A stretch of 64,000 nucleotides of DNA. It comes from Bolinopsis microptera. Its lineage: Eukaryota; Ctenophora; Tentaculata; Lobata; Bolinopsidae. The notes below the pieces were generated by a model. That model was not told the origin of the DNA. It did no database searches and saw nothing but the letters and a program-made list of their open reading frames with translations. Each line of letters starts with the position of its first letter. The stretch's first letter is position 1. Positions 5,040 to 61,289 of the stretch are shown in pieces. The stretch lies in NCBI RefSeq assembly GCF_026151205.1, contig NC_087076.1, positions 22,624,828 through 22,688,827 of the forward strand, given 5' to 3'. The translations under genes and the position numbers were made by a program.

Positions 5040-8000
5040 CTAGGCTGTTGTTTCACTATCCAATAAACATTTCCATAGATGCTTAGTGACCTCAGCTTTG
5101 AAAACACTTGTAGACACAATCTGTCTTACCTGTAAAGGGAGTCCATTCCACAGTATATGAGTTCTGTAGAAAAATGATTTTGCCAGTGGGCTATTTGAGG
5201 TACATAAGGTGTGTGAATTCTGACTTAACTTAGGTAAAATTGATGACACAATAGACAGACTGTCGAGGTGGCAACGTCTTAGTCGAGAAGTGCCCTGATA
5301 TAAAGTGAGATAGTGAGGCAGCGATACAGGAATTAAATTGTTCAGAACTTTGTGGAAAAAAATAAGATCGTTCAAGTCAAACTTTTGAGACAAAGGGAGA
5401 ATGTCGACAAGCTTGCACTTTTTGACATATTGCTCGGGTGGATAACTGCGGCCCTCTTCAGACAGAATCCATTTAATAGCTCTCTTTTGGAGACTTTCTA
5501 ATTTATCACTAAGTGATTTATTACAAGGGCGCCAGATTATGGAACAATTTTCGAATTGGCTACGAACCAGGGAGAGGTAAAGCGCCCGGCGACGTTTCTG
5601 ATCAATGACAATATGGCCATCTCTTCTGACCATACCAAGTTGTTGGCAGGCCTTAGTATAAATTCTGTCGCACTGACTATTCCAACTGAGCTTAGGAGTA
5701 ACATCGACTCCAAGATCTTTTTCTAACTCTACATACACAAGAGGAGAGCCATCAAGATTATATGCGAATGGAGGAGATAAAGATGGTTTTCCTGAAACAA
5801 TAAGCACTTTACATTTTGCTGGATGGAATCGCATTTTGTTTCTAAGTGCCCAGTCAGAGAGATAGTCTATATCCATTTGTAAATTGGTATTATCAGAAGA
5901 TGAATGTATTTTACGCCAGATTTTTGTATCATCGGCATACAAAACAATATCAGTATTATCCGAAAGGCCAAGAGGAATATCATTGATAAACAATACAAAA
6001 AGTAAGGGACCAAGGATAGAGCCCTGGGAGACACCAGAATTAACTGAGAGGGTAGATGACATCTCATTACCAATAACCACTCTTTGGTAACGGCCTTGAA
6101 GGTAATTGGTAAGAAATTTGAGAAGTGTACCATCAATGTTATATAAGGTCTTTAGCTTATGAAGAAGGATATCATGATTTACAGAATCAAATGCCTTAGC
6201 AAAATCAAAATACACAACATGATTGATAATGTTTTCGTTAAGAGACAATGCCAGGCTATCACAAAAATCAACCATATTGGTTGTGCATGACTTGTGCTCT
6301 AGAAAACCATGCTGCCTGGGATCAAGAAGGGTACTTGTCAAAGAAAGCAGTTTACGTTTAACAATGCGCTCAAAAACTTTCATGACTAAACAAGTAAGGG
6401 ATATTGGTCTATAGTTTTCAACCTCACTTTTCTTACCTTTCTTAAATATTGGGACAACATTTGCAAGTTTCCATTCTTGTGGAATGTAGCCGCTGTTGTA
6501 GGATCCACGAAAAATGCATGTTAGAGGGTAAGCTAAACCTACGGAACAATTTTTTAGAATTTTACCGTGTATGCCATCTGGTCCCTGGGCTTTATTTGAA
6601 TTAATATTTGAAAGAAGCTTACGAACATCCCGATGATCGAAGTCAATATCAAAATCAACATCATTGACATAGGAGATGTCAGTGTCATAAAGTGAAGGAT
6701 CCGAAAACTGGTTATAAAAGAAAGAATTGAAAAGTTTAGCTTGATCTTTGGGATTGAACCGAAGCTGTCCAGAATAACTAACACAATTAGGAATACGGCA
6801 GGAGTTAGATTTATACTTAACATGTGACCAAAACTTCTTAGTTATAAGCGCTGGATCATCACTATTAAAAAGATTATCTCTTATTTTGGCTGATGAGAGC
6901 CTCTTAAAATCTTTACGGCTAGTAACAAACTTTAACTCATCAGAAATAGAACCAGAAATTTTAAATTTAGCTCTGAGTCTATCTTTTTTACGGCATGAAG
7001 AAAAAAGTTCACTATCGAACCACGGGGGTTGGAACTCTGATTTAATAATTACTTTAGGAATATGTATATCAACTAAATTCATAATGCAGTCTTTAACTAA
7101 CTTCCAAGACGAATCAGGATCTAGGCATTCTAGGACTTGCCAATTAATCGAGCATAATTCACGATTAATCATGTCCCAGTTTGCTTTCTTAAAATTATAG
7201 ATTTTACGTTTAGGAGTTTTCTTACGGGAAAAGGAGCTTTTAATTGAAAAAGTGACAGGAAAATGATCAGATTTGCACACGGAATGAGGATCACAGACAT
7301 TCAAGTTATCAATTGTGTTATCATAATTACTGAGAAGAATGTCTAATGTATTACCACTTTTATGGGTGGGTGATGTGATCAACTGGGAGAGAGAAAGATC
7401 ACTGAAAGAATCTATGAAGGATTGCTCAATAGGTACGGTACTGGATGAAGATAGCCAGTCTGTATGGGGGAGATTAAAATCACCAATAACATAGATTTTA
7501 GGGGGATTCTTTTTGGAAACTAGCTTGCGAATATAACTAACTATGACATCATGATTAGGTAACCCAAGAGTTCCTACTCTATAACAAGTACAGATTACAA
7601 TACTCTCTTTGTTAAGAAAAGAAATTTTAACGGCAAGCATTTCTGCACCTAGGCTAACTGGTAGTCGGGTTGTAGTGGCGTCGAGATCAGACCGAACAGC
7701 CAAAAGAACACCACCTCCATTTTCCCTAAACTTTTTAGGGTTATTAGGATCTTGAGGATGAGTCTTTCTCGTGCGGTCATTGCGGAAGATTTCATATTGA
7801 GAAGAAGGAAAGATTTCGTTGCTAGAAATAGATTTTTTGAGCCAAGTCTCATTTAGGGCAATTATGTCAGGCTGCTCTATGTTAGCAAAGGATTGAAGTT
7901 CGGAAATCTTATTACCATCAAGAAGGGGATGGGAGGAGCTTAGGTTACTGAAAGGAATGAGACCTTGGACATTTTGGTAGAGTACAGATAGAGAGTTGGG

Positions 8001-8504
8001 ACCTGGATTAAGCATAGAAGGATTAACAAGAGTTATCAAAAGAAAGTTAAGAGAGAAAACCCAAAGAATGAATAAAGAGACTAGACGCCTGAGGCGGCTG
8101 GAATACTTGACTCTATTCATCTTACCAGGGAGAAAAACATTTCTTATAAACCATGAGGAGATAATTACAAAGAAAAGTTTGATGTGGGAGCAAGCAAGAA
8201 ATGGTATAAGATAACGTGGGCTGTCAAGGAGTAGAGAGGAATGAATATTAGAATCTAGGGGGAATACGGTGTTCATGGACCTAACCGTGGAGAGAAGAAT
8301 TGGGAGAAAGTAAGTCATGATGAGAGAATAGAAGAGAAACATATGATTATGATAATTGTAGTTGATGTGTGGGGTGTATGGAGACTTAAATGTGTAAATT
8401 TTGTTAGGTATAAACGTGTTGATATGTATAAGTGCATTTCTTGACTGTGTACGAGGCCTTTTGCATGCAAAAAGACCTATTCTAAGTCTAAACGATTCAT
8501 TGTC
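5040..8504 (-). CDS. LINE ORF2: hydrophobic N-terminus, NPGP, APE endonuclease, reverse transcriptase
   Basis: An uninterrupted ORF2 body of about 1,150 codons. The N-terminal ~150 residues are hydrophobic and end in a transmembrane-like segment (LFILWVFSLNFLLITLV) directly followed by NPSMLNPGP. Then comes an APE-type endonuclease (YQNVQGL, LNETWL, GDFNLPHTDW, KSDHFPV). The reverse transcriptase follows, with YFDFAKAFDSVNH, SQGSILGPLLF and the catalytic YADDTKIW near 5930. The reading frame runs upstream into the inserted TIR element. Across the insertion site an ATG at 11670 is in frame (MLDN|ESF), so the element struck codons 2-4. A downstream ATG at 8120 just before the membrane segment is an alternative start. 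Nicking and target-primed reverse transcription are the family's known roles. Confidence 0.9.
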   Translation of the reverse strand, partial: DNESFRLRIGLFACKRPRTQSRNALIHINTFIPNKIYTFKSPYTPHINYNYHNHMFLFYSLIMTYFLPILLSTVRSMNTVFPLDSNIHSSLLLDSPRYLIPFLACSHIKLFFVIISSWFIRNVFLPGKMNRVKYSSRLRRLVSLFILWVFSLNFLLITLVNPSMLNPGPNSLSVLYQNVQGLIPFSNLSSSHPLLDGNKISELQSFANIEQPDIIALNETWLKKSISSNEIFPSSQYEIFRNDRTRKTHPQDPNNPKKFRENGGGVLLAVRSDLDATTTRLPVSLGAEMLAVKISFLNKESIVICTCYRVGTLGLPNHDVIVSYIRKLVSKKNPPKIYVIGDFNLPHTDWLSSSSTVPIEQSFIDSFSDLSLSQLITSPTHKSGNTLDILLSNYDNTIDNLNVCDPHSVCKSDHFPVTFSIKSSFSRKKTPKRKIYNFKKANWDMINRELCSINWQVLECLDPDSSWKLVKDCIMNLVDIHIPKVIIKSEFQPPWFDSELFSSCRKKDRLRAKFKISGSISDELKFVTSRKDFKRLSSAKIRDNLFNSDDPALITKKFWSHVKYKSNSCRIPNCVSYSGQLRFNPKDQAKLFNSFFYNQFSDPSLYDTDISYVNDVDFDIDFDHRDVRKLLSNINSNKAQGPDGIHGKILKNCSVGLAYPLTCIFRGSYNSGYIPQEWKLANVVPIFKKGKKSEVENYRPISLTCLVMKVFERIVKRKLLSLTSTLLDPRQHGFLEHKSCTTNMVDFCDSLALSLNENIINHVVYFDFAKAFDSVNHDILLHKLKTLYNIDGTLLKFLTNYLQGRYQRVVIGNEMSSTLSVNSGVSQGSILGPLLFVLFINDIPLGLSDNTDIVLYADDTKIWRKIHSSSDNTNLQMDIDYLSDWALRNKMRFHPAKCKVLIVSGKPSLSPPFAYNLDGSPLVYVELEKDLGVDVTPKLSWNSQCDRIYTKACQQLGMVRRDGHIVIDQKRRRALYLSLVRSQFENCSIIWRPCNKSLSDKLESLQKRAIKWILSEEGRSYPPEQYVKKCKLVDILPLSQKFDLNDLIFFHKVLNNLIPVSLPHYLTLYQGTSRLRRCHLDSLSIVSSILPKLSQNSHTLCTSNSPLAKSFFYRTHILWNGLPLQVRQIVSTSVFKAEVTKHLWKCLLDSETTA

Positions 8505-9365
8505 TGGGGGGGGTGTAACCCAAAAAAACCCAAAAAAACCCAATCCCAGTATTACCTTTTTCAGGGTAGGAGTTGGGTTTTTTTGGGTTTTTTACAAATT
8601 TTTCATTTGAAGGAAATAAAATCATGTAGGCACCTAGCAAAACAATTATTAGTACAACATCACTGTTGTGGTTCATCACTACAACATCACAATAGATATA
8701 ATCGCTTAAATATCACCCAAAAGCAGTATTTTATTCACTGATGTGCTCAGAAGAAGTTGGCCATCCAGATATGATATCAGCCATATGTAATGCTCACTTC
8801 GATGGCCATGGCAAATTGAGTTAGTAGGGACGCAACTCACTGATGACCCCAACCCTGACCGCAACCGGTACGAGAGGAATAAAGCCTTTCTTCTCACCTT
8901 CACGATCTCTGTTTCCGTTTTCCTGATCATCCGCTTAACGAGAAACCATGCTCTATCTCCAACTGAAAGAATCTTGCAGTTACCATCAGCTGCATGATCG
9001 CATGTGATATTGAGTGATATCTTCGCTTGTTTATGGCCCTGGAGTCGCTAAAATCTTGACTGGGATGGCATTCGATCTCGCCCTCCATTGAGGCAAACCT
9101 CAACAGCCGTATCATGATGCAGAGCATCACAATACACAGTTACTATTTTCGCCCATTCCTCTGATGAGTCAATATCCTCCACTTTACAAGTAGGCAGGTG
9201 GTCTTTCAATGGTTGTGTGAAGCTTAGGTGGCCCAAGGCGTCACCGCTGGATAGACGCTGGGTGGAAGCCCTGGTCTGATGTGAGGCTCCCAGAACTTTG
9301 AAAAGGGGTATCCTGCTGGTGCCCTCTTCCAGACACTCATCGGACAGCATGATGAAAGCCACTAC

Positions 9366-9412
9366 CTCTGCGTGCTGAAGACTGGATAGTATCCAGTCTT
9401 CAGCACGCAGAG
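9366..9412. repeat. Perfect 23-bp inverted repeat with 1-base spacer
   Basis: The left arm (9366-9388, starting CTCTGCGTGCTGAAGACTGG) and the right arm (9390-9412) are exact reverse complements separated by one G. It lies inside the 3.15-kb TIR element and within a 145-codon minus-strand open frame (9048-9485) whose product I do not recognise. Confidence 0.9.
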
Positions 9413-9559
9413 TGTGGATACTGGACAGGGGGTCCAGGCTAAAGGCAGGACGATCGACGGGAGACATTGAGCCCCGGTAGTTCAATAATTTGATCTATTG
9501 ACTCCTTAACTCTTGGTCTACAAGAGGCTTTGAGACTCGTAAATCTTTACTGTGGATTG

Positions 9560-11270
9560 CACAGTAGCTAAAGAGGTGTTGGCTGTTACCCTGTTCAACC
9601 TAGTATACTATGACCATTGACCCAGCTAGACTGGACCACACTCTGGTGGTCAGGATACGGCTCCCTATGCCCGGGGTACCGGGTAACGAAGTAGTCAGGG
9701 GAAGGGTTAGTCCCCGCTAAAGTGTAGCTCTGTTCTCACTCTAACCTCCTTATGCTTTGGGATAAAATCGGAAAGTCCCACACTGGAGCAGGTGACGATT
9801 GGGTAAGGATTACAACTGATGCTGTTGGGTAGAAAAAGGAAGTGTCACATTTGTCTTGTATAGCATATTATGTTCGTGCAATTACATGCTCAAGATACCC
9901 AAGATATTATGGTGAGAGTTAAAGATGGCTATTGTTCAAGCGGATGCCCTTAACCTTTTAGTGGCGCAAGAGTTAAGAACACAATCCACTGCAGGGGACT
10001 GCACAGGATTGTGAGCCAACTGAAAAGTCAAGATGAAGTTTATCAACAGCTTACGGGTTAAAGCCCCTTATTTTTCTAGTGGAAGTGGTTGCCGGGGAAA
10101 TTACGCTACTATTACAGAAGCTGATGACTCGGTCTCCACATCACGACAACCTATTTCTACAGAAAGTCAAACAAGAAAACATCAAAAAAATATGAACATC
10201 AATTGTATTGTATCATGTAAAAGGACTGCTAAGGTTAGCACATTTAACATAAGATTAAGAACAGCCAGAGAACAGCACAAACGCATCGAACTTGCAGAAC
10301 TATTTTCTCGAAGCAAGCTGCACATCCTTGGCCTGCAAGAATCGAACATCGGGTAGCGCATGCTGATTGCTGAGAATACCAGAATAGAAAAGATGAACAA
10401 AGGGATTCATCCAGTGATATCATCTGCGTGGAGAAACGCAGCTGGCGCTTCTAATGGGAGAGTAGGAATCATCTTGACGAGTACAGCAGCGCATATGAGG
10501 CTATAAGTCTTATAAAATTATAAAATCTTACAGCGCAAGGATCCTCACCATGTCTCTTAATGGAAAGCCCAGGCTCACTGTCATCACATGCTACAGTCCT
10601 ACAGAAGCCTCATCTGATGAGGAGGCATGAAATCTTTTTTGTCTAAAACCAAGCATCTTACAGTTAATTTAGTAGGAGAGGAGCCACACACAATAATTTC
10701 TAAGGACGGACATGCCTTAGAAGAAGTTGAGGATTTTAGTACAACGGAGCACGACTTTAGGTTACGCAAGGCCAAGGCATGGGCTGCCTACCACAAAATG
10801 TAGGCTATATGGAGGTCCAATTTGCGCCGAGATTTAAAGATCCGTCTGTTCAAGTTACGGTTGAATCAATCTTCCTGTATGGAACGAAAACGTGGACAAT
10901 AACAGAATCTTTGAAGAAAAGAATAGACGGATGTTACAGTAGAATGCTTCGGATGGCCCTAAACGTGGACTGGAGAGGACATCGCACCAACAAGGAGGTC
11001 TTTGGATCACTCCCAAGAGTTATTTCGAAGATACAGGCCAGAAGAATGAGGTTGGCTGGGCACATCCAGCGACATGATGACCTGGCAGCACACCAACTTC
11101 TCCTTTGGGAACCTAGGGAGGGGTAGACCACCGCTCACCTTCGTCGATAACCTAATAAGTGACACTGGATTAAGAACACTGGGGAGATTAAGGAGCTTAT
11201 GACGGACAGAAAGCTTTGGAGACACATCATCGAGACTCGGACTCTGAAGCCGCCTTAAGTCAAGTAATTT
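9560..11270 (+). pseudogene. Internally deleted LINE inside the TIR element
   Basis: An endonuclease-RT LINE of the type often annotated as craniofacial development protein 2-like. A GC-richer 5' leader (9600-9730) is followed by the endonuclease start at 10230 (STFNIRLRTAREQ, ILGLQESNIG), a further endonuclease piece near 10550 (SLNGKPRLTVITCYSP), and then directly by the C-terminal tail near 10860-11220 (LYGTKTWTITESL, RMRLAGHIQRHDD, LLLWEP). The reverse transcriptase core is missing and several stops interrupt the rest, so this copy is dead. It either inserted into the TIR element or was captured by it. Confidence 0.7.
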
Positions 11271-11812
11271 AAGTCATGTGCTTTGACTTGCCCTTGACCT
11301 TCGTCATAGCCTCCTTTCATGACAGGAGAACACATTTGCCACGTTTGGCACATTTCCACTTTGTGCATTCATATATGGATTATATCTCGATGAACGAGAC
11401 ATCCTGTTTGCTATCGTGATAACATACTATCAATATAAACACACTTATATACTATGTAAACTATCTATTAAGTTAAGACATGAGAACAACACGTAGGTAA
11501 GACTCAGTGGGAAATAATTCACATTCAATACAATTAATGAAATGGCTAGAATTTTGTTTAAATTTTGTTTAAAAAACCCAAAAAAACCCAAAAAAACCCA
11601 ATCCCAGTATTACCTTTTCTTGGGTAGGAGTTGGGTTTTTTTGGGTTACACCCCCCCCATTGTCTAACATATTGGAAAATGGACAGTGACCGAATGTACC
11701 TGAAATGGGAGGCATAAAATTGAGAAAAAGATTAAATCAGAGATTTGTTTGAGTTTTAATTTTAGGCGCAACGTCTTAATCAAAATATTAAATGGAAGAA
11801 AAGATCAAAGAT

Positions 11813-13195
11813 TTAAATTCCCAGAAGATTATTTACAACCCTGTCAAAACTGTGTTCGTTTACAACAAACTTAAGCCAAGTGGACAGTAAACCTACTCCT
11901 CTCATGTTGAGATGAAGCCAATCATGGTATAGAAGTTCATTACATGATCTAAAGTCTCGAGTTAAAAAGACTGAGAAACAGTCTAAGAACACGCAATTAT
12001 TATTTAGGCATAAGTCTTTAAGTAGATTATTAAAATCTAGAACATTCTTTGCTATGTAGGAATATAAACATTTAATAGGAAGACAACATTGGATAATTAT
12101 AATTGCAGCGGGAAATAACTGCTTAGTGGTGTCAATTAATTCAGTAAGATACTTCCTAAGGAACTGAACCCCATACTTAGAATGTTTAATGTCATTTGTA
12201 CCAACACTCAATATAATTTTTTCAATATCGTCAGCTTCTGCAGCTGCATGAGTTTTATGAAAATTATGAATGTTTTCAGTGATGTCTCTAATTTTTGCAC
12301 CACTTTGAGACACATTGATTACTTTCCTTCCCCGGAATCCCAACTTATTTGTCCGTACGAATTTTGTCATTGACGTACCAAACAGGACAGTGGTTTTCCT
12401 GCTCTTCGGTTTTCTTGGAGTATTTCGGTAGTAAATGGTTGGTGTTGAGGTGGTGGTGGGCGGCATAGGAATTGTAGTGCGGGCAATCTGCTCCTTGACT
12501 ACATTTGTATCTGTCTTCGGTATCTGGCAGCGAAAAGATAAGCTATACCGAGTCCCCTTAACTGAGCTCTCTGCACGAACCTTGTGAAGACAATATTCCT
12601 GACACCCCGGTTTCATAATATACAAACTACAGTCCTTTGGGGTGATATAGCATTTACTGTTACATCGCTTATCCCCATTTTCTGGAATTATGTCGATGGT
12701 CCTCTCAGCTCCAAATGAAACTACATAAATACCTTGCGACTGGTCAAGAGACACCTCGTCGTCGTTGTGGTACCTAGTTGCACAAGAACCAGACTTGTAC
12801 ATGCTTGCTAGGCATGAGTTTAGCTTGCAGCCAAACTTGGAGTTGATATCATGCATAAGCTCTGTTATCCCAGGATAATTTAAAATATCGATTGGCTCCT
12901 TAGTCGTGGTGTGTCCATTTGAGGAAGACCATACATATTCTTCTCCAGTGGAAGTGAGCCACTTTGTGGCAGTTTTCACAGCAGTTTGCTTGGCCATAAG
13001 TGTTTCAAGTTCAGACATCAACGTGCCATGTTGAACACTCTTGTTCTGAACAAAATCTGAATGCAACTCCAAGAAGTCCTCGCATTTAACAGAATTTCTC
13101 TTAAGTTTCATGACATTCTCAACACTGGCCTTGAGAGCTTTCAGCTCATTTAATGAAAACGAGTTTAAAACATTGGTAACAGAATTCAGATCCAT
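11813..13195 (-). CDS. LINE ORF1: AlkB-like dioxygenase fused to SGNH esterase (460 aa)
   Basis: Residues 1-70 are a helical, charged leader. Residues ~125-225 have the layout of an AlkB-type 2-oxoglutarate/Fe(II) dioxygenase: iron ligands H143-x-D145 in RYHNDDE, distal H204 in CLHKV, and 2-oxoglutarate arginines in RYSLSFR (R216, R222). The D-to-H spacing of ~59 is near that of AlkB. A proline/threonine-rich linker leads to an SGNH-hydrolase domain (~268-445) with FGTSM in place of GDS, SVGTND (block III) and DWLH (D425, H428). CR1 ORF1 esterases are known; an AlkB partner is not one I recall. AlkB enzymes remove methyl groups from bases in DNA or RNA. The intact frame suggests recent activity. 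Start: the ATG at 13195 is the first in frame. Confidence 0.85.
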   Translation of the reverse strand: MDLNSVTNVLNSFSLNELKALKASVENVMKLKRNSVKCEDFLELHSDFVQNKSVQHGTLMSELETLMAKQTAVKTATKWLTSTGEEYVWSSSNGHTTTKEPIDILNYPGITELMHDINSKFGCKLNSCLASMYKSGSCATRYHNDDEVSLDQSQGIYVVSFGAERTIDIIPENGDKRCNSKCYITPKDCSLYIMKPGCQEYCLHKVRAESSVKGTRYSLSFRCQIPKTDTNVVKEQIARTTIPMPPTTTSTPTIYYRNTPRKPKSRKTTVLFGTSMTKFVRTNKLGFRGRKVINVSQSGAKIRDITENIHNFHKTHAAAEADDIEKIILSVGTNDIKHSKYGVQFLRKYLTELIDTTKQLFPAAIIIIQCCLPIKCLYSYIAKNVLDFNNLLKDLCLNNNCVFLDCFSVFLTRDFRSCNELLYHDWLHLNMRGVGLLSTWLKFVVNEHSFDRVVNNLLGI

Positions 13196-13347: not shown

Positions 13348-13376
13348 TTTGTTATATAGTAGTGTTGAAAGTATTA
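13348..13376. repeat. Shared ~28-bp motif at LINE 5' end, copy 1
   Basis: Read on the LINE strand, TAATACTTTCAACACTACTA followed by TATAACAAA lies about 150 bp upstream of ORF1. The same 28 bases sit upstream of ORF1 in the plus-strand copy (29936-29964), and a solo copy lies at 34092-34120. Confidence 0.75.
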
Positions 13377-17830: not shown

Positions 17831-18712
17831 TTTTATTATCATTTCATTGTTTGATGTTTATGGTAATCATGCGAGGTCTTTTAAATTTAACACTGATTTA
17901 ACAGATCACTTTCTCATCATCCACACAATATTGTAAAGGTAATCAATAATAATTAAATTCAGCGAAATTGACACAATGAGGGTGCACACTTTACAACGTC
18001 ACGTCATCTTTACTCAACTCAAGTTTTGCTTTTAATTAAATAAACTCTCACATTACATCTGCAGAAGCAATTTTGATTATCTTAATTCAAGCACGCTCCA
18101 GAGTTCCCATCAGGGGGGTGGAAGCTTAAGTTTAATCAACTTCCTTTTTAAGAATTACTCAACAGTCAACTGCTCGCGGAATTATAACCTGTATTGTAAT
18201 CACATGGTCCGGATCCGTGGAACACTGGTGAGCAGTCTGATGGGCTCTGGGTTTTGGTTAATTCCTTTTTTGTACCTTTTATAGAACAATGATATAAAAT
18301 GACAACGAAGTTACTCGGAATTATCACAATTTATTATATCAGGCTGACTACAACATTAAAATTGTGATTAATACGTTAATGTATCAGGGGATAGTGGAGT
18401 GAAGAGTTATATATGTTTTAGTGGTGTCAATGTTGAGGTAGTTTAAGGGGCGATGGTGCATGCAACCAGGTTGATTAGTAAACTCTCAAAACGTGACAGG
18501 GGACAGAGGCTGGTCACGTTGTTACTACCCACCTACAGGAAGCTAATGTAATAACTTAGAGCTAATATCCTTCCCTCTTGAAGAGATGTAATTGTTCCTC
18601 CAAGTTAAGAGAAAGGTTGCTGTATTAAATACCACGTTGAGAAGCTAAACTGTCCCATGTCTAGTGCAACTGGCCCAACTTGCATGATAATTATAGGAAT
18701 ACTAGAAAGCCC
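17831..18712. other. No recognisable gene
   Basis: AT-rich sequence upstream of the RTE-like LINE. I see no conserved ORF, no clear hairpin and no tandem array. Confidence 0.4.
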
Positions 18713-18720
18713 GTGGTAAC

Positions 18721-18863
18721 AGGGATGAAAGGAAATCGCGGAATCGCGATTTTCCCATTATTTGCGACAAATTTTATGTATAGTCAGAGTCTTATGTATA
18801 GTCTGTTAAAAATAGCGGTATCGCGATTTTTGGCAAAATAATCGCGATTTTCTTTTGTCCCTG
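18721..18863. mobile_element. 143-bp hAT-like MITE
   Basis: The ends read AGGGATGAAAGGAAATCGCG and, in reverse complement, CAGGGACAAAAGAAAATCGCG-like sequence, giving terminal inverted repeats that begin (C)AGGGA. GTGGTAAC flanks both sides (18713-18720, 18864-18871) as an 8-bp duplication. The CAGGG tip and 8-bp duplication fit hAT elements. It is non-coding. Internal ATCGCGAT palindromes recur. Confidence 0.75.
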
Positions 18864-19149
18864 GTGGTAACAGGGATGACGTAGTAGTAGTGTTCTTTGA
18901 AAGAAAGTTTTAATCGCATCAAAAAGTGTTTATCTTAGCCGAAGATACAACCGATTTAAATGTAAAACGCTTTAGACACAATGTAATTACCACAAAACCG
19001 ATCAAAACGACATTCCAACAATCTTTGCACGTGCGTATTACAACACCGTTGCTATTCAACCTTTTGGTTTTTACTTAACTTCCTATTATTCATCCAGTTT
19101 GCACGTGGGCGTTCGTACAGACAGACACACCTACAGAAAAAATCTTTAG

Positions 19150-19340
19150 AATTATATTAAAGATGGTCCGAATTAGGCTTGAGTACTGCTAGGCTCCGCC
19201 CTCTGGAATCCTCAAAAAGTACACGAATTCCAAGCACTGGAAGCAGTTTAAATGTCCTTCACCCGCAGGATATCAGGCTGCTAGAACTTGGACTACTGTA
19301 TGATTTTAAACCTAATTATTATTTCAATAAATAAAGATCT
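19150..19340 (+). pseudogene. LINE 3' fragment
   Basis: Broken frames read IRLEYC, LWNPQKVHEFQALEAV and SFTRRI, the RT thumb/C-terminal block common in CR1 and Jockey LINEs (LEYCSxVWxPxxxxxxxxLExVQRxFTRRI). The fragment ends near AATAAATAAAGATC. It is short and decayed. Confidence 0.65.
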
Positions 19341-20097
19341 GACACAAATATTACTATTACTATTGCGGTCATTTTGCACACCCTATAAGTATAGGCCATA
19401 GGGCTCCTGGGTGTCTTTTTGACACTGACAGTAGTTACAAGTTTTTACTTAGGCGCCTGGATAAAATTTGCTCTAACTTTTTCCCCATCAGATCCAGATT
19501 TAAAACTCTTTCATGGGGTGGTTCCTGAAACTATGGACAACAGTAACACCAAACACATTCCTGTAGAAAAATGGTTGTCGCAAATTCTTGACTAGATGGT
19601 TCTGTATTCAATTTAATTATCACTACTACTCCTCCTAAAATAAAATCCTGATCAGCATCGAATTTTTTAGAATTAAGAAATAAAACAACCTCTGAGATTA
19701 AAAAGTTTAAGAATTATACACGTAAATCTACATTTTACGACGAAACGTTCATTATGCCAATCAAATATAATCACAACAATCATTAATACATATAAATCAA
19801 TGGTCCTTAAAGGAAACAAATTGTTCGTTATAATTTGAGCCTATCAAAAATACAATTTCAACACGTACCAGGGCAATCATACCACATACTTATTTTTGTT
19901 CAATTCATAAAGTTATTTATTTTATCACCATCAGACAGTATCAAGAACTAAAGGCATTGCAAAGGTTTTTAAAATGTCGTGCCATGCACATTGTGTGCAT
20001 TACCCCCACTTCTCTCCCTCGATAAGAAGCAAGCATAGACCAGCAAGCAGGGTATAACCAGGGTATAATAACCTGGGTAGGAGACAACGTTCCAGTA
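19341..20097. other. No recognisable gene; downstream of GPCR
   Basis: AT-rich sequence that includes the presumed 3'UTR of the minus-strand GPCR at 20098. I see no repeat structure. Confidence 0.35.
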
Positions 20098-21087
20098 TTA
20101 AGGCAGTAGTCTATCTCGCTCTCTCGCCTGCTGAGCGGTGCGCTGATCTTCGTTGGAAACAAAACGTCTCCTGATGGAAGCAAAAACCGCCCTGATCCTA
20201 GACTTCAGGAACTCCTGGAAGCTGGTGAGACTGGCTGTGTAGATGAAGAAGTTAGCAGGGGCTTGCAGATACAATATGAACATTGCAAACCTAGTATATG
20301 CAATGTAGGAAGTTGGAGTAGACTGTGGCTGGATTTTTGGATGTTCAAATAGGTTAACAACTAACGGGACAGTTGCTATGGCATAAACAACCACAGTGAG
20401 AAGGACCGTTCTGATCCCCTGCCATTGGAGACCTCCAGCTCTTCTATCTGCAATCTTTTTTGCCAGGAATAGTAGCATAACGCTGCTTACTGTGATGATC
20501 CCTGTAGTGAAGAGGCCGACTCCTCCTATAACTACTCCAAAGACATAATCAATCTTGGACTTATGAACTGGAAGTGCATAGTCGCAATTGTAGCTCACGT
20601 AGCTGAAGTAAGCACCCTTTTCGGCAGCCACGAGCACTCCAAAAGAAGACATGCATGAAAACATGACCAGGGTCGTCAGATGACCTGCTCTTTTCGAAAA
20701 ATCAACTGCTCTCAGTGGATATTTCACGATCAGGAACTTGGCAAATGTTAGGGCACCGATGAGAAGAGCGATTGTTCCCCCAAAGCTGCCCGAAATGAAG
20801 AATCCTGCAGAGCAAAGGAAGTCACCGAAGACCCAGACATTAGCAACAAGTGAAACTGCACCAGGCAGGAGTCTAACGATGGAGATGACCAAATCAGCGA
20901 CAGCGATGTACTGGATGAATACCACCATTATCTTGTGAAGCTTTATAGCGTTGTACCTTATAGAGCCAATGAGGATGAGGGTGTCTCCTATCAGGGATGA
21001 TAGGAAAATGAAGGACGTGTATGCAGAGAGAACATACCTTTCAGCTTTGTCATGAATTCCAAATCTTGTGTAATTTTCGTACTTCAT
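20098..21087 (-). CDS. Orphan class A (rhodopsin-like) GPCR, 329 aa
   Basis: A single-exon receptor starting at ATG 21087. Seven hydrophobic segments are visible. TM1 has GDTLILIGSIRYNA (GN replaced by GD). TM2 has IAVADL with the conserved Asp. TM3 starts after the conserved Cys (FLCSAGF). The DRY box is replaced by VKYPLRA. An extracellular Cys (YNCDYAL) can pair with the TM3 Cys. TM7 reads PANFFIY in place of NPxxY. The C-tail is arginine-rich (RIRAVFASIRRRF). It acts at the plasma membrane; the ligand is unknown. It is clearly related to the receptor at 36237-37394 (shared YNAIKLHK and KYPLR), so it belongs to one lineage-expanded family. Confidence 0.85.
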   Translation of the reverse strand: MKYENYTRFGIHDKAERYVLSAYTSFIFLSSLIGDTLILIGSIRYNAIKLHKIMVVFIQYIAVADLVISIVRLLPGAVSLVANVWVFGDFLCSAGFFISGSFGGTIALLIGALTFAKFLIVKYPLRAVDFSKRAGHLTTLVMFSCMSSFGVLVAAEKGAYFSYVSYNCDYALPVHKSKIDYVFGVVIGGVGLFTTGIITVSSVMLLFLAKKIADRRAGGLQWQGIRTVLLTVVVYAIATVPLVVNLFEHPKIQPQSTPTSYIAYTRFAMFILYLQAPANFFIYTASLTSFQEFLKSRIRAVFASIRRRFVSNEDQRTAQQARERDRLLP

Positions 21088-29368: not shown

Positions 29369-29935
29369 ACTGACTATATAATAGTAATACCCCTTTACTA
29401 ATACTATTACACCCACTTGAAACTATATTTTTTCTTCATTTAGAAATTTTGCAGGGCTTCTAAAACTTGACCAAATCGATAAAAAAGTCAAAAGGGTTAA
29501 ATTAAATGAATTTAAAAAGCAAGCAACCGATCTCATTCTCAGTATCATTTTGAATCTGAGAACGGTAATTAAAATTGATATCATTTATTTCTTTTTGTTT
29601 GGGAAAAGGAGACACTGATGGCGACGGTCCACTGGGTTTGGTAAAAATTAAAATCAATGAATAAGAGGTCATGGCTTTTGTTCACCATTTTGTTCGGTCG
29701 TGGTGCTGGCTTTTAATAATGAACATTATCTTTATGTTTTATCATACAAGTGAAACACTCATAATAGGCTGACATACGGATATATCCATGGTATAATCAT
29801 GATCGGTTTTGTTCACATTTTCTATTATTCACTGTACCATAAAACGATTCGTTTTTATGCCTAGCTTTTCTGCTAATTTCTGCCAATGAATAATATGCTA
29901 ATATTTATGCTAATTATATGCTAATTAATATAATT

Positions 29936-29964
29936 TAATACTTTCAACACTACTATATAACAAA
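29936..29964. repeat. Shared ~28-bp motif at LINE 5' end, copy 2
   Basis: TAATACTTTCAACACTACTA plus TATAACAAA, in the same orientation relative to the LINE as at 13348-13376, about 460 bp before ORF1. Confidence 0.75.
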
Positions 29965-30427: not shown

Positions 30428-31795
30428 ATGATAAACCTTGAAGAGATTTTCGACTATGTTAAAGCTGCTTCAATTGAGGATCTGCAAAATATCCTCAACT
30501 GTGTCCAGAACGAGCTCCCTAAGCGTGAGGGAAAGGTGGACAACTTTGTTTTGCACCTAGAGGACTTCTGTGGTGATGATGTCCTCCTTGATGCAGTATG
30601 GGTGGAGTGTGGGTCCTTGAAGATGAACACTGGGGGGAGAAACAAGGCTCAAACCGCTTGGTTATGCTCGCAGGATCAGGCCTATACGTACCCGGACACA
30701 AACCCAGTACACTCACCACAGGATATCAGTAGTTTCCCTAACTTCAAAAGGCTGCTGAGTCTCGTTAACTCAAGCACAGAGATAACTGGACCTTTGGACT
30801 CCTGTCTGGTCATCAAGTATAATAACAACCAGTCCAGCACCTCGTTACACTGTGACGACGAGACACTCATCGACCAGGAGAAATCGACATGCTCTTTCTC
30901 CCTGGGGTGTGAACGGACACTTGAGTTTTACGAGGGTACAAAGAAGAATCCTAAATGTGCCAAAGCGATAAGGATGAAGAACAACAGCCTTGTCGTAATG
31001 AGGCCTGGGACACAGCAGAATCTGAAGCATGCGGTGCGTGCAGAGCTGGCTACTGGTACGAAGGAGGATGGTCAAGACCAAGTGCGATACTCCCTGTCTT
31101 TTCGCGCAATCGTGAAAACTGGCAGCCAGGCCAGCTCTGAAACCAACAGTGCCAGTGAGACTAGTACACCTGCTTGTGGCATTAAAGTCAAAGAACCTGT
31201 GCAGAAAGTCACGTTGGTTGCTGGAGACTCTTTTGCTCAGAGATTGGACTCGGACAAGCTGGGAAAAGGGAAAGTCAAAGTCGATAATGTTGCACAAGGT
31301 GGAGCAAAGATGGACAAGGTCCAGAAGCAGCTTGAGGACTATTCTGCTGCACATCCCGATGTTCAGGTTGATAAACTTTTAATTAGTGTTGGTACGAACG
31401 ATATTAGACGGGTAGACGATGTAGGCATAGTTAGAGGGCCTCTGAAGCAACTCTTTAGTAAGATATGCCAATTAATTCCTTATTGTAAGGTTTATGTTCA
31501 ATCTTTATTGCCATTACCCTTAACGTCTGATGATGATAGATTAACTAACAAGAGGATAATAGACTTTAATAGGATTTTATATAATGAGTGTGTTTTCAGG
31601 AGGTTCTTCTTTATGGATGTCTTTTATCCCTTCACTAAATTCAAGAGAACTTATAAGGAACCCGTTAGGAGATTTGACCCGTTATTTGAGAGCAATGGTA
31701 TTCACCCTAATCCTCAGAAACGAATGGGGGTGTTGGCTAGGTCTTATATTCGTGCCATACACAGTAGATATTTTAATCCCTTTGTATATCAATAG
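30428..31795 (+). CDS. LINE ORF1: AlkB-like dioxygenase fused to SGNH esterase (455 aa)
   Basis: Intact. The ATG at 30428 gives MINLEEIFDY, comparable to the helical start of copy 1. The AlkB-like domain (~120-228) has iron ligands H141-x-D143 in LHCDDE, distal H201 in LKHAV, and R220/R226 in RYSLSFR. The SGNH-hydrolase domain (~260-440) keeps a canonical nucleophile block VAGDSF (S268), SVGTND (322-325) and the catalytic His in NGIHPN (H426, with Asn423 where Asp is usual). A serine/threonine-rich linker joins them. Domain order, spacing and motifs equal copy 1 although most other residues differ, so selection has kept both enzymes. Likely role, inferred: RNA or DNA base demethylation plus the ester-hydrolase activity known for CR1 ORF1 proteins. 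Confidence 0.85.
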   Translation: MINLEEIFDYVKAASIEDLQNILNCVQNELPKREGKVDNFVLHLEDFCGDDVLLDAVWVECGSLKMNTGGRNKAQTAWLCSQDQAYTYPDTNPVHSPQDISSFPNFKRLLSLVNSSTEITGPLDSCLVIKYNNNQSSTSLHCDDETLIDQEKSTCSFSLGCERTLEFYEGTKKNPKCAKAIRMKNNSLVVMRPGTQQNLKHAVRAELATGTKEDGQDQVRYSLSFRAIVKTGSQASSETNSASETSTPACGIKVKEPVQKVTLVAGDSFAQRLDSDKLGKGKVKVDNVAQGGAKMDKVQKQLEDYSAAHPDVQVDKLLISVGTNDIRRVDDVGIVRGPLKQLFSKICQLIPYCKVYVQSLLPLPLTSDDDRLTNKRIIDFNRILYNECVFRRFFFMDVFYPFTKFKRTYKEPVRRFDPLFESNGIHPNPQKRMGVLARSYIRAIHSRYFNPFVYQ

Positions 31796-33839
31796 TTTAA
31801 CCTGAGCTGTATTATGGACCTTGTATAGCTAGTTATATGCAGATGTAGTCTGGCAAGTATACTTACCTGTAAATTACCGTAGACGTGGTACAGGTAGTAT
31901 CTTTGACATTTTAGACAGCTGCATTGATCCTAGCTTCTTTTTATATATATATAAAAAGAATATATATATTCTATGTTTTATTCATATGCCATTTCTCACT
32001 CATCATCATCACTAGTGCGGGGGTTAGTGGGTTGGCTTTTTCTAGAGTCACATATGATTGCCGAGCCTTTGTACCAACATATCCAGTGCCTAACCTGTGC
32101 CGATATTTTACTGTATATTTCCTTCTACACTTAGCAAATATGTATTATTTCCGGAATGATTATAGTTTCGACGGCCTTTACAATTTCTGCCATGTTACAA
32201 TCTATAGGAATTTAAACTTTTTATCTACTGGTAGAGCTGGTATTGCACTAACTGGATGCATAATTTGGTTGTTCTTGTTGAATGGTATTTTGATAGTTTT
32301 TGTAAATCCTGGAATCGTAAACCCAGGACCCCCTCCTATAGATATTAGGTTGGGGAATAGTAAGGTATTGAATGTTTACTTTCAGAATGTTCAAGGCCTT
32401 ATTCCCTTCGGTGAGCTTAATAATGCCCACCCAATGCTTGATAACACCAAATGTCTTGAGCTTTCAACTTATTTTAATGAGGCAAATATAGATATTGCAA
32501 TACTTAACGAAACTTGGTTTAAAAACTCCATAGCTGATAGCGAATTCCTGCACCCTGATAAATATAAGATATTTCGCTCTGACAGATCTAAGAAAACTCA
32601 TCCACCTGATCCCTCTAATCCGACCCGGTTTAGGAGAAATGGTGGCGGGTTCATGATTGCTGTGAGAGCAGACCTTCAATTATCTTCGAAAGAAATCCGA
32701 CTTAAAGAGGGGGCTGAGATTCTTACTGTGGAGTTTACAACATCAACGGGCATTAAATTTGTTATCTGTACATGTTATCGTGTTGGTACACTGGGCTTTG
32801 CAAATCATGAAAAAATTCTTGGATCTCTGAAAACTCTTCTTCGGAGAAGAGGGCTAAGCAAAGTATTTATCCTAGGAGATTTCAACCTGACTGGAGTCTC
32901 CTGGTCTACCTTGGCCGGCTCCTGTCCTATTGAGCAGATTTTTGTTGAATCTTTTGTAGACCTTGGCCTTCGGCAATGTGTACTTACACCCACCCATTGC
33001 AAAGGCAAAACACTGGACCTTTTGCTCACAAACTCTGACTCTAATATCAGTGACCTAATGGTAGGTGAGCGAGATAGCGTCTGTAAGTCTGATCATTTTC
33101 CAATCAACTTTAAGATCAACATTAAGGTAAATAGGAAGAAGCCGGTTAAGCGTATGTGCTATAACTATAAAAACGTGAACTGGGAGAGGCTAAACCATGA
33201 ACTCCGGCACACAGACTGGAATGCATTGCTTAGTGGCACAGAACCTGAAATTGGGTGGAAAAAATTTAAGGAAAAACTTTTCAATATCACTGACAAATTC
33301 ATCAAGAAATGCTCAGTTAAGACAGATGGACAAGATCCATGGTTTGACTCAGAGTGCTATGATGCATGGTGCAAGAAAATAAGACTGCATAAAGATAGAC
33401 ATAAAAGCGATAGAGCCCAAATAGCGTTCTCCCTTGCCAGGAAAAACTTCAAAAATGTGGTTGCTAAAAAAATGCGAGAAACATTAAATGAATCAGATGA
33501 TAGCGCTCTAATTGTAACAAAAAAATTCTGGTCATATGTAAAATCAAAAACAGCTAGTCAAAGAATTCCTGAGTTTGTAAGCTACAAAGGCATTGTCCGC
33601 AACTGCCCAGAGGACCAGGCCAACTTATTTAATGGCTTTTTCTTCGAGCAGTTCTCTGAAGCATCATTATACGACATAGATATTGATTATTCAAACGATT
33701 GGCGCTTTGATATTGCATTTGACCACCAAAGGGTTCGCAAAATCCTTTCCAATATTAACCCTAACAAAGCTTATGGGCCTGATGGTATTCATGGGAAACT
33801 TTTGAAAAACTGTGCTGTTGGGCTTGCATACCCATTATC

Positions 33840-34160
33840 ACTACTAGCAGGAACCCGTCTAACCCTAAAGTGGTTTCAAGACTCAAGAGACTAAATAATT
33901 ATTACCTATTTAATTCGCGTTTTTGACACCACAAGTTGATGCCGTGGTGTCAGTAAAATGGCACAGATAAATATATATATAAATATATATATATATATTT
34001 CATGGCTGGACTTCTACATAATAAAAGAAAGCGGTTGTGATTAGATCTTCGAAAGTCTTTGCATCGTTTATTTACATCAATTCTCAAATTACTTGTTATA
34101 TAGTAGTGTTGAAAGTATTAATCGATATATATATATATCGTCTCGCTTTATATATAGTAA
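33840..34160. mobile_element. ~320-bp insertion in LINE ORF2
   Basis: Comparison with the copy 1 protein shows extra sequence between the RT segments GLAYPL and SxYNxG. The insert is AT-rich, with (AT)n runs at about 33970-34000 and 34125-34142. It includes the 28-bp LINE-5'-end motif in reverse orientation (34092-34120). ATTAT occurs at both breakpoints and may be a 5-bp duplication. No terminal inverted repeat is clear. Confidence 0.6.
34092..34120. repeat. Shared ~28-bp motif, solo copy
   Basis: CTTGTTATATAGTAGTGTTG plus AAAGTATTA, identical over 28 bases to the LINE 5'-end motifs but away from any LINE start. A more diverged relative lies at about 38967-38998. Confidence 0.7.
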
Positions 34161-36174
34161 GATTATTTCATTCATGTTACAACATTGGGACATTACCTAG
34201 GGAGTGGAAACTGGGACACGTTGTACCCATATATAAAAAAGGTGATAAACATGAGGTTTCAAATTATAGGCCAATATCCCTTACATGCTTAATCACCAAA
34301 GTTCTTGAACGCATAATTAAAGATGAGTTACTTGCACTTACTAACGGCATGATCAACGATAAACAACACGGTTTTCGAGCTGAAAGATCATGTGCAACTA
34401 ATCTTGTAGGTCTATGTGACAGCCTAGCTCTCTCACTGAATGAAAATATGAGAACAGATGTAGTCTATTTTGATTTTGCCAAAGCCTTTGACTTAGTTAA
34501 CCATGATCTTATATTATTTAAGCTAAAGAGCAAATTTGGTATTGATGGGAGGCTACTGAAATTTCTCACTGATTATCTAAGAGACAGGCAACAACAGGTC
34601 TTGATAAGTGGTAAATTTTCTTCCATGAGAAACGCCCAATCTGGTATACCACAAGGGTCAATTTTGGGACCTTTGTTGTTCATTATGTTCATTGATGATA
34701 TATCAGTGGGGATTTCACCAGGCACACAACTGTCACTGTATGCCGATGATACTAAAATTTGGCGTGAGATTGTTTCGGAGTCTGATATCCTGCGACTGCA
34801 GAAGGACATTGATTATCTCCATGACTGGTCACTTTCTAATAAAATGAGATTTCATCCCGACAAATGTAAGGTCCTCACCGTCGCAGGAAGGATATCCGAG
34901 ACAGTTTCCCTCCTTAGTGTCCTACCACTCTTTAACTTTGTATACTCCATGGGAAGAATCGCACTTGACTATGTCGATCATGAAAAGGATCTGGGTGTTT
35001 TTGTGACCAAGAATCTCGACTGGCAAGACCAGTGATCTAAAGTCCTTTCAAAGGCCAACCAAAAATTAGGCATGGCAAGGAGAAATTGCTATTTTGTTCA
35101 AGATGTAAATCGTCGTAGAGTACTGTATCTCACTTTAATGAGAAGTCAATTTGAGCATTGCTCAGTTATATGGAGACCGGTCACCAAATCCCAGATAAGC
35201 AAGCTGGAGGACCTCCAAAAGCGTGCTATTAAGTGGATTCTTCGCGAGGAGTATATGAGTTATCCACCATCCACATACATTCAAAAATGCAGACAGCTTA
35301 AGATTATGCCCATAGAAGACCGCTTCGACTTTCTTGACCTTATTTTCTTCTTTAAAATTGTGAAGCAACATATTCCTGTCACTTTACCCTCATATTTGCA
35401 ACCATTTCAAGGCCACTCAAGGTTAAGAAATAGCCACATGGACCCCTTATGTTTTGTAAGCTCGATCTTACCACGAGCAAGCTCTAACGCTTTTGCTAAG
35501 AACTTTTACTTTAGGACCCATTCCAAATGGAATCATATTCCTCTAGCTATACGTGAGATAGAGACTATTTCTGAGTTCAAAAGCAAATTGACCTCCTACA
35601 TGTGGGATAAAATTCTGCCGGAGGACTTTGATTATGATCTAGATTATTCCCTCGAGACAGAGATGTGAGGCAGTTTACCTAACGCTAAAAATATGTTCAT
35701 AAGAGTTTAAATCCCTGTTGTCTGTATTTCTCATTTCTCATTTTAGTGCATATCATCACATCATGGATTTCACTTTATTATATGATTTTATTGCTTTTGA
35801 TATTTTTGTGTGTTTCTATTTGAAATTCTATTTTAAATTCAAGATTTTCGTGGGCCCATACTTGTGCAGGAGGTGCATTTTGCTCTCAACATCTGTGTTT
35901 TGGTGACCCTCAGGTCCTTTGATTACATACATTTTGTCTTAGAAAATCTGATTTTATCGGAGTCTTATACTTAACTTTTGAGAAAATTTAATGTTGTTCA
36001 TTCATTGTGTAAATTTGTATGTAATTGATCGATTTGAAAGATTTCAATAAAAAATATGCTAATTTTTATCCTAATAACATTCTAATAATATGCTAATAAT
36101 ATCCTAACGAGTTGTTATTTTAGGAATCACGGGTCAGATGGTATCAACGATATTCCACCACACAGCAATAATAG

Positions 36175-36236: not shown

Positions 36237-37394
36237 ATGCAGACAAATAATTGGGAAGGGTCAGCCACACTTTCAACTTCTTCCTACACCCCCACAAACT
36301 GGGAGGACATTGATCGTAAAACTCTTCATGGAATAACGGACAATTACGTAGAGCGGACTATTTTGATAACTTGGGCGATGACAGTTTTAGTTTTGTCACT
36401 TATCGGAGACAGCATAATACTAGTGAGCACTGTAAAGTATAACGCTATAAAGCTGCACAAGGTAATAGTGGCTGTGATGCAGCACCTTACAGTTATTGAC
36501 ATTCTGCTCGCTCTGTTCGAAGTGTTACCCACCACAGTGGCACTGGTTGCAGACGGTGGGGTGGTCGGAGTGTTCCTCGGACATGTTGGCATCCACACCA
36601 AGAACATGTGTGTTTCAGCGACTGTGCTGTTTAACTGTGCCATGACAATCCTAAAGCTGGTATATTTAAAGTATCCTCTGAGAACTGCAGGACTGTCAGC
36701 AGTGCTTGGTCACAAGATATGCGCGGCTCTGTGGAGTCTGATGTTGTGTTTCTATCTGCCCCTCATCGTGGGCAGCATGTTGTACATCAGGGACGATATC
36801 TACTTCGACTACAAATCTTACACGTTCTCCTACAACGAACACTTTGCTCCAATCTGGTTGAATTGGTACACTTTAATCTGCTCTAGTGTTCTTCTCATTA
36901 CTCCCTGTCTTGTCCTCGTGGTCACATCCGTCCTCATCTTCGTAGTAGCGCACAAAGCAGCATCTCGACATGGAGGGAGACTGCGGAGGGAGGGTGCTGT
37001 AACAGTGCTGCTAACAGTGGGGGTCTTCTTTATTTCCTTCCTGCCTATCTGTCTGGTAGACCTGGTCTGGAACGTTAACAAACGTTTTCATTTCAATATC
37101 ACATTCCTTAGGGCGGTACATTTCCTTACTTACTTAAACATTATGGCTAACTTTTTTGTGTATTCCCTTACCGTGAGAAGCTTTAGAGCATTTTTGAGTA
37201 AGAAAATATCACACATCTTCTTTTTGTTTGGTTTATCCAAAGGTAAAGGGCCATTTACGGGATTGTTCACAAACAAGGGTTCAAATCAATTAAAGTACAA
37301 CAGGTCTAGGACAGGATCTTGCCCCAACTTATCATCAAGCAAGCACGTCAGAAGTCTTCCCAAAATATTTTTATCTCCTCATCTGGCAAGCTAA
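36237..37394 (+). CDS. Orphan class A (rhodopsin-like) GPCR, 385 aa
   Basis: A single-exon receptor. ATG at 36237 (AACAAGATGC). The N-terminus is Ser/Thr-rich and lacks a clear signal peptide. TM1 has GDSIILVSTVKYNA, the loop has IKLHKV, TM2 has LTVIDILLAL, and the DRY box is replaced by LKYPLRT. TM5 is long (LICSSVLLITPCLVLVVTSVLIF). TM6 has FFISFLPICLVDLVW. TM7 has NIMANFFVYSLT in place of NPxxY. The basic C-tail is longer than in its relative at 20098-21087. The usual TM3 Cys sits in an atypical context (KNMCVSA), so the disulphide is less certain. Plasma-membrane signalling through G proteins is inferred from the fold; the ligand is unknown. Confidence 0.85.
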   Translation: MQTNNWEGSATLSTSSYTPTNWEDIDRKTLHGITDNYVERTILITWAMTVLVLSLIGDSIILVSTVKYNAIKLHKVIVAVMQHLTVIDILLALFEVLPTTVALVADGGVVGVFLGHVGIHTKNMCVSATVLFNCAMTILKLVYLKYPLRTAGLSAVLGHKICAALWSLMLCFYLPLIVGSMLYIRDDIYFDYKSYTFSYNEHFAPIWLNWYTLICSSVLLITPCLVLVVTSVLIFVVAHKAASRHGGRLRREGAVTVLLTVGVFFISFLPICLVDLVWNVNKRFHFNITFLRAVHFLTYLNIMANFFVYSLTVRSFRAFLSKKISHIFFLFGLSKGKGPFTGLFTNKGSNQLKYNRSRTGSCPNLSSSKHVRSLPKIFLSPHLAS

Positions 37395-61245: not shown

Positions 61246-61289
61246 GAACAGTATACAATAGTACATTTAACAAATGTACTATTGCAAAT

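Follow-up and report, generated by a model that had tools for sequence, protein, structure and literature searches.

The 64-kb window, by which we mean the whole stretch of Bolinopsis microptera DNA that was analysed, contains two LINE-like elements whose first open reading frame (ORF1) encodes an AlkB-type domain followed by an SGNH hydrolase domain. Element 1 lies on the plus strand, and its ORF1 (30428..31795, +), recognized from the ORF listing and by Pfam, is open and encodes an AlkB-SGNH protein of 455 aa. In the structure model, helices are predicted near the N-terminus (residues 4-13 and 16-34) and are followed by the AlkB-type dioxygenase domain (residues 36-230; 30533..31117, +), which is matched by PF13532 at residues 73-226 and by the fold of ABH2. 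An interdomain linker modelled with low confidence (residues 233-253, pLDDT <50; 31124..31186, +) leads to the SGNH hydrolase domain (residues 258-447; 31199..31768, +), which was identified by PF13472 and by a fold match of the model and contains S268, G292, N324, and H426. The original prediction had placed this ORF upstream of an endonuclease-reverse transcriptase (EN-RT) ORF2, and both domains are indeed found downstream. The first open piece of ORF2 (31924..33894, +; Pfam and tblastn) has a hydrophobic N-terminus with the motif NPGIVNPGP and encodes an AP-type endonuclease and the start of the RT. The RT region is interrupted by roughly 0.3 kb of foreign sequence with approximate edges (33847..34163, +), recognized from the sequence and from a break in tblastn similarity to a Mnemiopsis relative, which stops at 33846 and restarts at 34142. 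The remainder of ORF2 (34164..35668, +; Pfam, tblastn, and sequence) encodes the rest of the RT and a C-terminal region, and it is interrupted by an in-frame TGA at 35033-35035. In element 1, then, ORF2 is broken and ORF1 is open. A repeat scan and the sequence itself point to 11-bp ATGCTAATAAT-like repeats (36045..36108, +) as a candidate 3' tail at the putative end of the element. We also observed 11-bp repeats of the ATGCTAAT type on either side of element 1, at 29884-29931 and 36045-36091. Over 48 bp the two stretches agree at 83%, and they could represent either tails of LINEs or intron ends rich in branch points.

The window also holds a second, strongly diverged AlkB-SGNH LINE that the original prediction overlooked. 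ORF1 of element 2 (11813..13195, -) is open and encodes a protein of 460 aa that is 27% identical to that of element 1. Element 2 has its own EN-RT ORF2 (5040..8543, -; PF14529, PF00078, and sequence), which is open and, as delimited here, begins inside the end of an inserted transposon; Pfam identifies an AP-type endonuclease and an RT in the ORF2 of both elements. This DNA-transposon-like insertion (8506..11657, -), recognized from the sequence, separates ORF1 from ORF2 and is bounded by 8-bp direct copies of AGACAATG at 11665-11658 and 8505-8498, with inverted ends that were spotted by eye. An exact 25-bp sequence occurs three times in the window (29939-29963, +; 13349-13373, -; 34093-34117, -), compared with a mean of 0 in 100 shuffles. 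Two of the copies precede the two ORF1s, oriented alike relative to each, and are shortly followed by TTTAGG, which is like a 3' splice site; the third copy is inverted within the RT insert of element 1.

The fusion of AlkB and SGNH domains in one ORF is confirmed. In ORF1 of element 1, Pfam detects both an AlkB-type 2OG-Fe(II) oxygenase (PF13532), which scores 58.4 bits against a cut-off of 31.2, and a GDSL/SGNH hydrolase (PF13472), which scores 47.5 bits against one of 32.9. No NCBIfam family was found for the protein. A first protein search with ORF1 returned 121 proteins at E <= 0.001, and a profile search from diverged members returned 104, of which 95 were new; together, these represent at least 215 distinct clusters of relatives, fragments included (120 plus the 95 new). 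One relative (P0001) is automatically annotated as “alkylated DNA repair dioxygenase AlkB/lysophospholipase L1-like esterase”, a name that makes no reference to a LINE. We examined active-site conservation in two alignments. Alignment A1 comprises the window protein and 94 of the best 120 of the 121 matches, with 26 short or partial rows dropped. Alignment A4 has 91 rows, namely the proteins of elements 1 and 2, 78 of the 95 new matches, and 11 earlier ones, with 17 short or partial rows dropped, and the rows dropped from either alignment are outside the counts that follow.

Within the HxDDE motif (30848..30862, +), the Fe ligands H141 and D143 and the acidic residue E145 are each present in all 95 rows of A1, as is the third Fe ligand, H201 (31028..31030, +); D144 is found in 65/95. 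The motif RYSLSFR (31085..31105, +) contains R220 (94/95) and R226 (93/95), which we take to be the 2OG/active-site arginines of the AlkB family. The SGNH Ser, Gly, Asn, and His are each kept in 95/95, and 93 of the 95 rows retain these four together with the full AlkB set of five (H, D, H, R, R). Only 14 columns of A1 are invariant, among them H141, D143, E145, H201, S268, G292, N324, and H426; the probability that the three iron ligands and the four SGNH residues would fall within 14 invariant columns of 455 by random placement is 4.5e-12, a figure for which the SGNH Gly was chosen with the alignment in view. In the more diverged A4, the Fe ligands are present in 91/91 rows, the equivalents of R220 and R226 in 89/91 and 90/91, and the SGNH Ser, Gly, Asn, and His in 90/91, 90/91, 91/91, and 90/91, respectively. 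The full set of nine residues is complete in 85 of these 91 rows, three of the others being without one arginine and three having an SGNH residue missing or gapped. The iron ligands are thus unchanged in all 174 aligned proteins. Searched singly, members of A1 match PF13532 in 89/95 cases and PF13472 in 95/95, and those of A4 in 68/91 and 91/91. The Asp three residues before the SGNH His is more variable, as it is Asn in element 1 and, among the residues listed for A1, mostly Asn, Gly, Lys, or Ser, and is present in element 2 and 68/91 rows of A4. The original prediction had named H141, D143, H201, R220, and R226 as AlkB-like residues sharing an ORF with an SGNH domain; they lie where it put them, and the Pfam matches agree.

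Judging from sequence profiles and structure models, the N-terminal domain of ORF1 is predicted to be an AlkB 2OG-Fe(II) dioxygenase by its fold and its HxD...H and R...R residues, and its closest solved homologues appear to be ALKBH3 and ALKBH2. Against the PDB, the A1 profile matched ALKBH3 (E 1.9e-13), ALKBH2 (7.3e-12), E. coli AlkB (5.1e-5), and ALKBH1 (0.089), and the A4 profile matched ALKBH3 (8.9e-20), ALKBH2 (1.3e-17), and AlkB (0.003). The element 2 protein alone matched ALKBH3 at E 7e-8, and that of element 1 alone gave a weak match to the ALKBH2/ALKBH3 subgroup (E 0.0069). The original prediction had made an AlkB-like double-stranded beta-helix its structural test, and fold comparison of the models recovered this fold. 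The top Foldseek match for two ORF1 models was ALKBH3 (8jnk_E; E 4.9e-13 and 6.8e-14), and residues 36-230 of the ORF1 model align with residues 63-258 of ABH2, almost all of the chain in the solved structure. From their alignment with AlkB enzymes, the HxD, H, and R residues would be expected to cluster in one site, as the original prediction required. FTO and ALKBH5 have this fold as well but score lower than ALKBH3 and ALKBH2, and they are missing from the sequence matches listed at E <=1 for the A1 profile or <=0.1 for the A4 profile, which is no proof of absence. E145 and its counterpart E147 in A4 (90/91) align with the DDE of ALKBH3. An acidic residue lies near the active site in ALKBH3 (Glu195) and ALKBH2 (Glu175), and FTO and ALKBH5 have one too (PMC3985658); as for the roles of ALKBH3 Asp194 and Glu195, these terms are absent from PMC10816986. 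The resemblance to the human enzymes thus extends to the best profile and fold matches, the HxDDE, H, and R...R residues, and an alignment beginning at model residue 36. Unlike them, the domain described here is fused to an SGNH hydrolase within a LINE ORF1; it also varies at the Asp that follows HxD, and its demethylase activity is a prediction.

The SGNH half was compared with the esterases of known transposons. It matches the ZfL2-1 LINE esterase (4c1b_A) at E 2.8e-8 with the A1 profile, 1.4e-12 with A4, and 2.8e-5 with element 2 alone. Both profiles give a stronger match to a bacterial (Bacteroides) sialate O-acetylesterase (5.7e-10 with A1; 8e-14 with A4), which falls slightly behind 4c1b_A when element 2 is used by itself (7.7e-5). 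As in the ZfL2-1/CR1-type esterase ORF1 proteins (PDB 4c1b; ORF1 type IV), the SGNH domain lies in ORF1 upstream of EN-RT, and to this extent the comparison with CR1 esterase ORF1s made in the original prediction stands. In PMC3905857, the pair H191/S228 of ZfL2-1 is reported to be conserved only among transposon esterases, and in this the comparison is limited, as the aligned positions hold Ser (89/95 in A1; 73/91 in A4) and Gln (95/95; 85/91). The proteins described here also differ in having an AlkB domain in front. ORF1 proteins of the ZfL2-1 type have an N-terminal coiled coil for dimerisation; what the model predicts at this end of the element 1 protein is the two helices given above. 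As the SGNH half occupies the same place yet has a different pair of residues, it may have been captured independently or may form a deep sister branch.

Relatives in another ctenophore have the same neighbours. In Mnemiopsis leidyi, gene model P0077 joins the AlkB half, with the first part of the SGNH domain, to an endonuclease, and P0122 joins them to an endonuclease and RT. Both models leave ORF1 within the SGNH domain, and the joins are therefore probably splicing artefacts of annotation, yet they record the same neighbourhood. The ORF2 pieces of element 1 are 86-88% identical to P0122, and ORF1 is 71% identical over 325 residues. Across 174 distinct proteins, the distances between AlkB halves and between SGNH halves have a correlation of 0.87 (at most 0.04 in 200 permutations), and mean identity is 37% for the AlkB half and 39% for the SGNH half. 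If only splits that leave at least six sequences on either side are counted, the AlkB tree has 58 and the SGNH tree 55, and 17 of the former recur among the latter. The correlated distances, similar identities, and recurring splits indicate that the two halves have largely been inherited together under about equal constraint, with occasional swaps being possible. We also tried pairing ORF1s with ORF2s by equal source-sequence length (215 lengths for ORF1, and 119 of the best 120 rows for ORF2); this gave six coincidences, including P0077, which was matched by both searches, and as 40 shifted controls gave 0 to 5, the pairing is no evidence. We further scanned viral contigs and the genomes of prokaryotes, using one or two short peptide patterns per scan; there were matches, none of which was confirmed by tblastn.

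Each part has a precedent of its own, as orchid Ty3/Gypsy elements have an AlkB ORF and CR1/L2 LINEs have ORF1s with an esterase. What appears to be new here is the AlkB-SGNH fusion within a LINE ORF1, for which we found no earlier description. Among the matches listed from the open-licence literature (titles and the starts of abstracts), an AlkB domain in a LINE was not described. There is no mention of AlkB, esterase, demethylase, or oxygenase in PMC6338049, of AlkB, dioxygenase, 2OG, ctenophore, or Mnemiopsis in PMC4120745, of AlkB, dioxygenase, or 2OG in PMC5408684, or of AlkB in PMC12859917. The nearest precedent for a retrotransposon with an AlkB-type domain is the AlkB ORF of Ty3/Gypsy elements in the orchid Phalaenopsis, described in PMC9289625. 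The orchid element is an LTR element in which an ALKBH5-like m6A eraser occupies a separate ORF, whereas here the domain is ALKBH2/3-like, fused to SGNH, and part of a LINE ORF1. The same paper describes AlkB domains in plant RNA viruses of the Alphaflexiviridae, Betaflexiviridae, and Closteroviridae, which are likewise RNA-based parasites with an AlkB domain of their own. These are viruses, however, and not a retrotransposon. We know of no SGNH partner for their AlkB domains.

We lean, by a modest measure, towards the reading that these LINEs encode an ORF1 protein with an ALKBH2/3-like AlkB enzyme and an SGNH enzyme, in which the AlkB domain binds and demethylates the RNA or cDNA of the element. 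The ORF1 protein would form an RNP with element RNA through its AlkB domain, which, with Fe(II), 2OG, and O2, would remove Watson-Crick-face methyl groups (m1A and m3C) from the RNA template or the single-stranded first cDNA, allowing target-primed reverse transcription to run full length. The OTTR paper (PMC12140624) reports that m1A and m3C interfere with reverse transcriptases, that m1A impedes the non-LTR R2 RT, and that AlkB treatment removes both modifications. The SGNH half may hydrolyse a lipid or other ester, or it may tether the RNP to membranes, as has been proposed for the ZfL2-1 ORF1 protein of zebrafish. According to Schneider et al. (PMC3905857), no esterase ORF1 protein in RepBase had a known structural RNA-binding domain, a gap that the AlkB domain would fill. 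Demethylation of the element's own RNA or cDNA fits the sequence. The fuller proposal, that the LINE encodes in cis an ALKBH3-like m1A/m3C eraser as one part of its RNP protein, with repair of template or cDNA built into target-primed reverse transcription, is one that we put forward tentatively and hold with less confidence.

A different use of the same domain would be to conceal the element from readers of the host by erasing m6A from RNA or 6mA from DNA. FTO and ALKBH5 share the fold, and PMC9289625 reports m6A RNA demethylase activity in vitro for the orchid AlkB protein, for which such a hiding role has been proposed. We nevertheless consider this unlikely, since with ALKBH3 and ALKBH2 as the closest solved relatives, and with FTO and ALKBH5 outside the sequence matches listed and lower in fold score, host base methylation is less favoured as a target than RT-blocking m1A and m3C. 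It is more doubtful still that the AlkB domain is chiefly a nucleic-acid binding platform for the RNP, with catalysis secondary or absent. The model of the OSK domain, an RNA-binding relative of SGNH hydrolases, is also matched by 23/95 members of A1 and 4/91 of A4. A platform of this kind would meet the need left by the esterase ORF1 proteins, which have no known structural RNA-binding domain according to PMC3905857. A pure binding module, however, needs neither Fe ligands present in every row of both alignments nor two nearly invariant arginines.

Elsewhere in the AlkB superfamily there are enzymes with protein substrates, and the dioxygenase might similarly target a host protein or a small molecule, for example in countering host defence. 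We give this little credence, as the solved structures closest to it are those of nucleic-acid repair enzymes and the alignment with ABH2 spans nearly the entire chain. Least probable of all, to the point of being negligible, is that ORF1 is a host gene merely adjoining a LINE, a possibility that the original prediction had raised against itself. In its favour, element 1 has an intact ORF1 beside a broken ORF2. Against it, the window contains another, diverged copy accompanied by an EN-RT of its own, the Mnemiopsis models join part of ORF1 to EN or EN-RT, and the relatives form at least 215 distinct clusters, fragments included. Because the second element and the Mnemiopsis models share the EN-RT neighbourhood, ORF1 most likely belongs to an old LINE lineage.

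Whether methylation of RNA or cDNA limits retrotransposons, and whether elements fight back, is an open question that is usually studied through host erasers. Here, the element itself appears, from its sequence, to carry the eraser. As this predicted enzyme is borne by the element and its iron ligands are unchanged, the question can be put directly to a single purified protein and its point mutants. The self-demethylation reading also bears on the mode of nucleic-acid binding in esterase ORF1 proteins, which PMC3905857 raised as a question in 2013. If it is true, an esterase-bearing ORF1 protein gains the nucleic-acid-binding module thought to be missing, and these proteins would form a two-enzyme ORF1 class.

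There are several further observations from the window. The ORF2s of both elements have a hydrophobic stretch and then NPxxxNPGP near the N-terminus (~32250-32340, +; ~8075-7997, -), and NPGP occurs within the first 300 residues in 85 of 119 ORF2 relatives among the matches listed. This motif resembles 2A-like signal sequences, and the window ORF2s do not have the D(V/I)ExNPGP motif given for such signals in PMC4981915. A third EN-RT ORF (14713-17814, -; 1033 aa) belongs to a different LINE, and no ORF of at least 80 aa is present in the adjoining 17815-19940. Scans of the window for tRNAs and Rfam families gave no matches. There are two GPCR-like ORFs, one of which (20098-21087, -) reaches the Pfam cut-off for 7tm_1, and the other (36237-37394, +) is without a Pfam match and was called by eye from its translation. 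Lastly, a 233-bp satellite occupies 61281-64000, with 11.8 copies and 96% matches, and extends to the end of the window.
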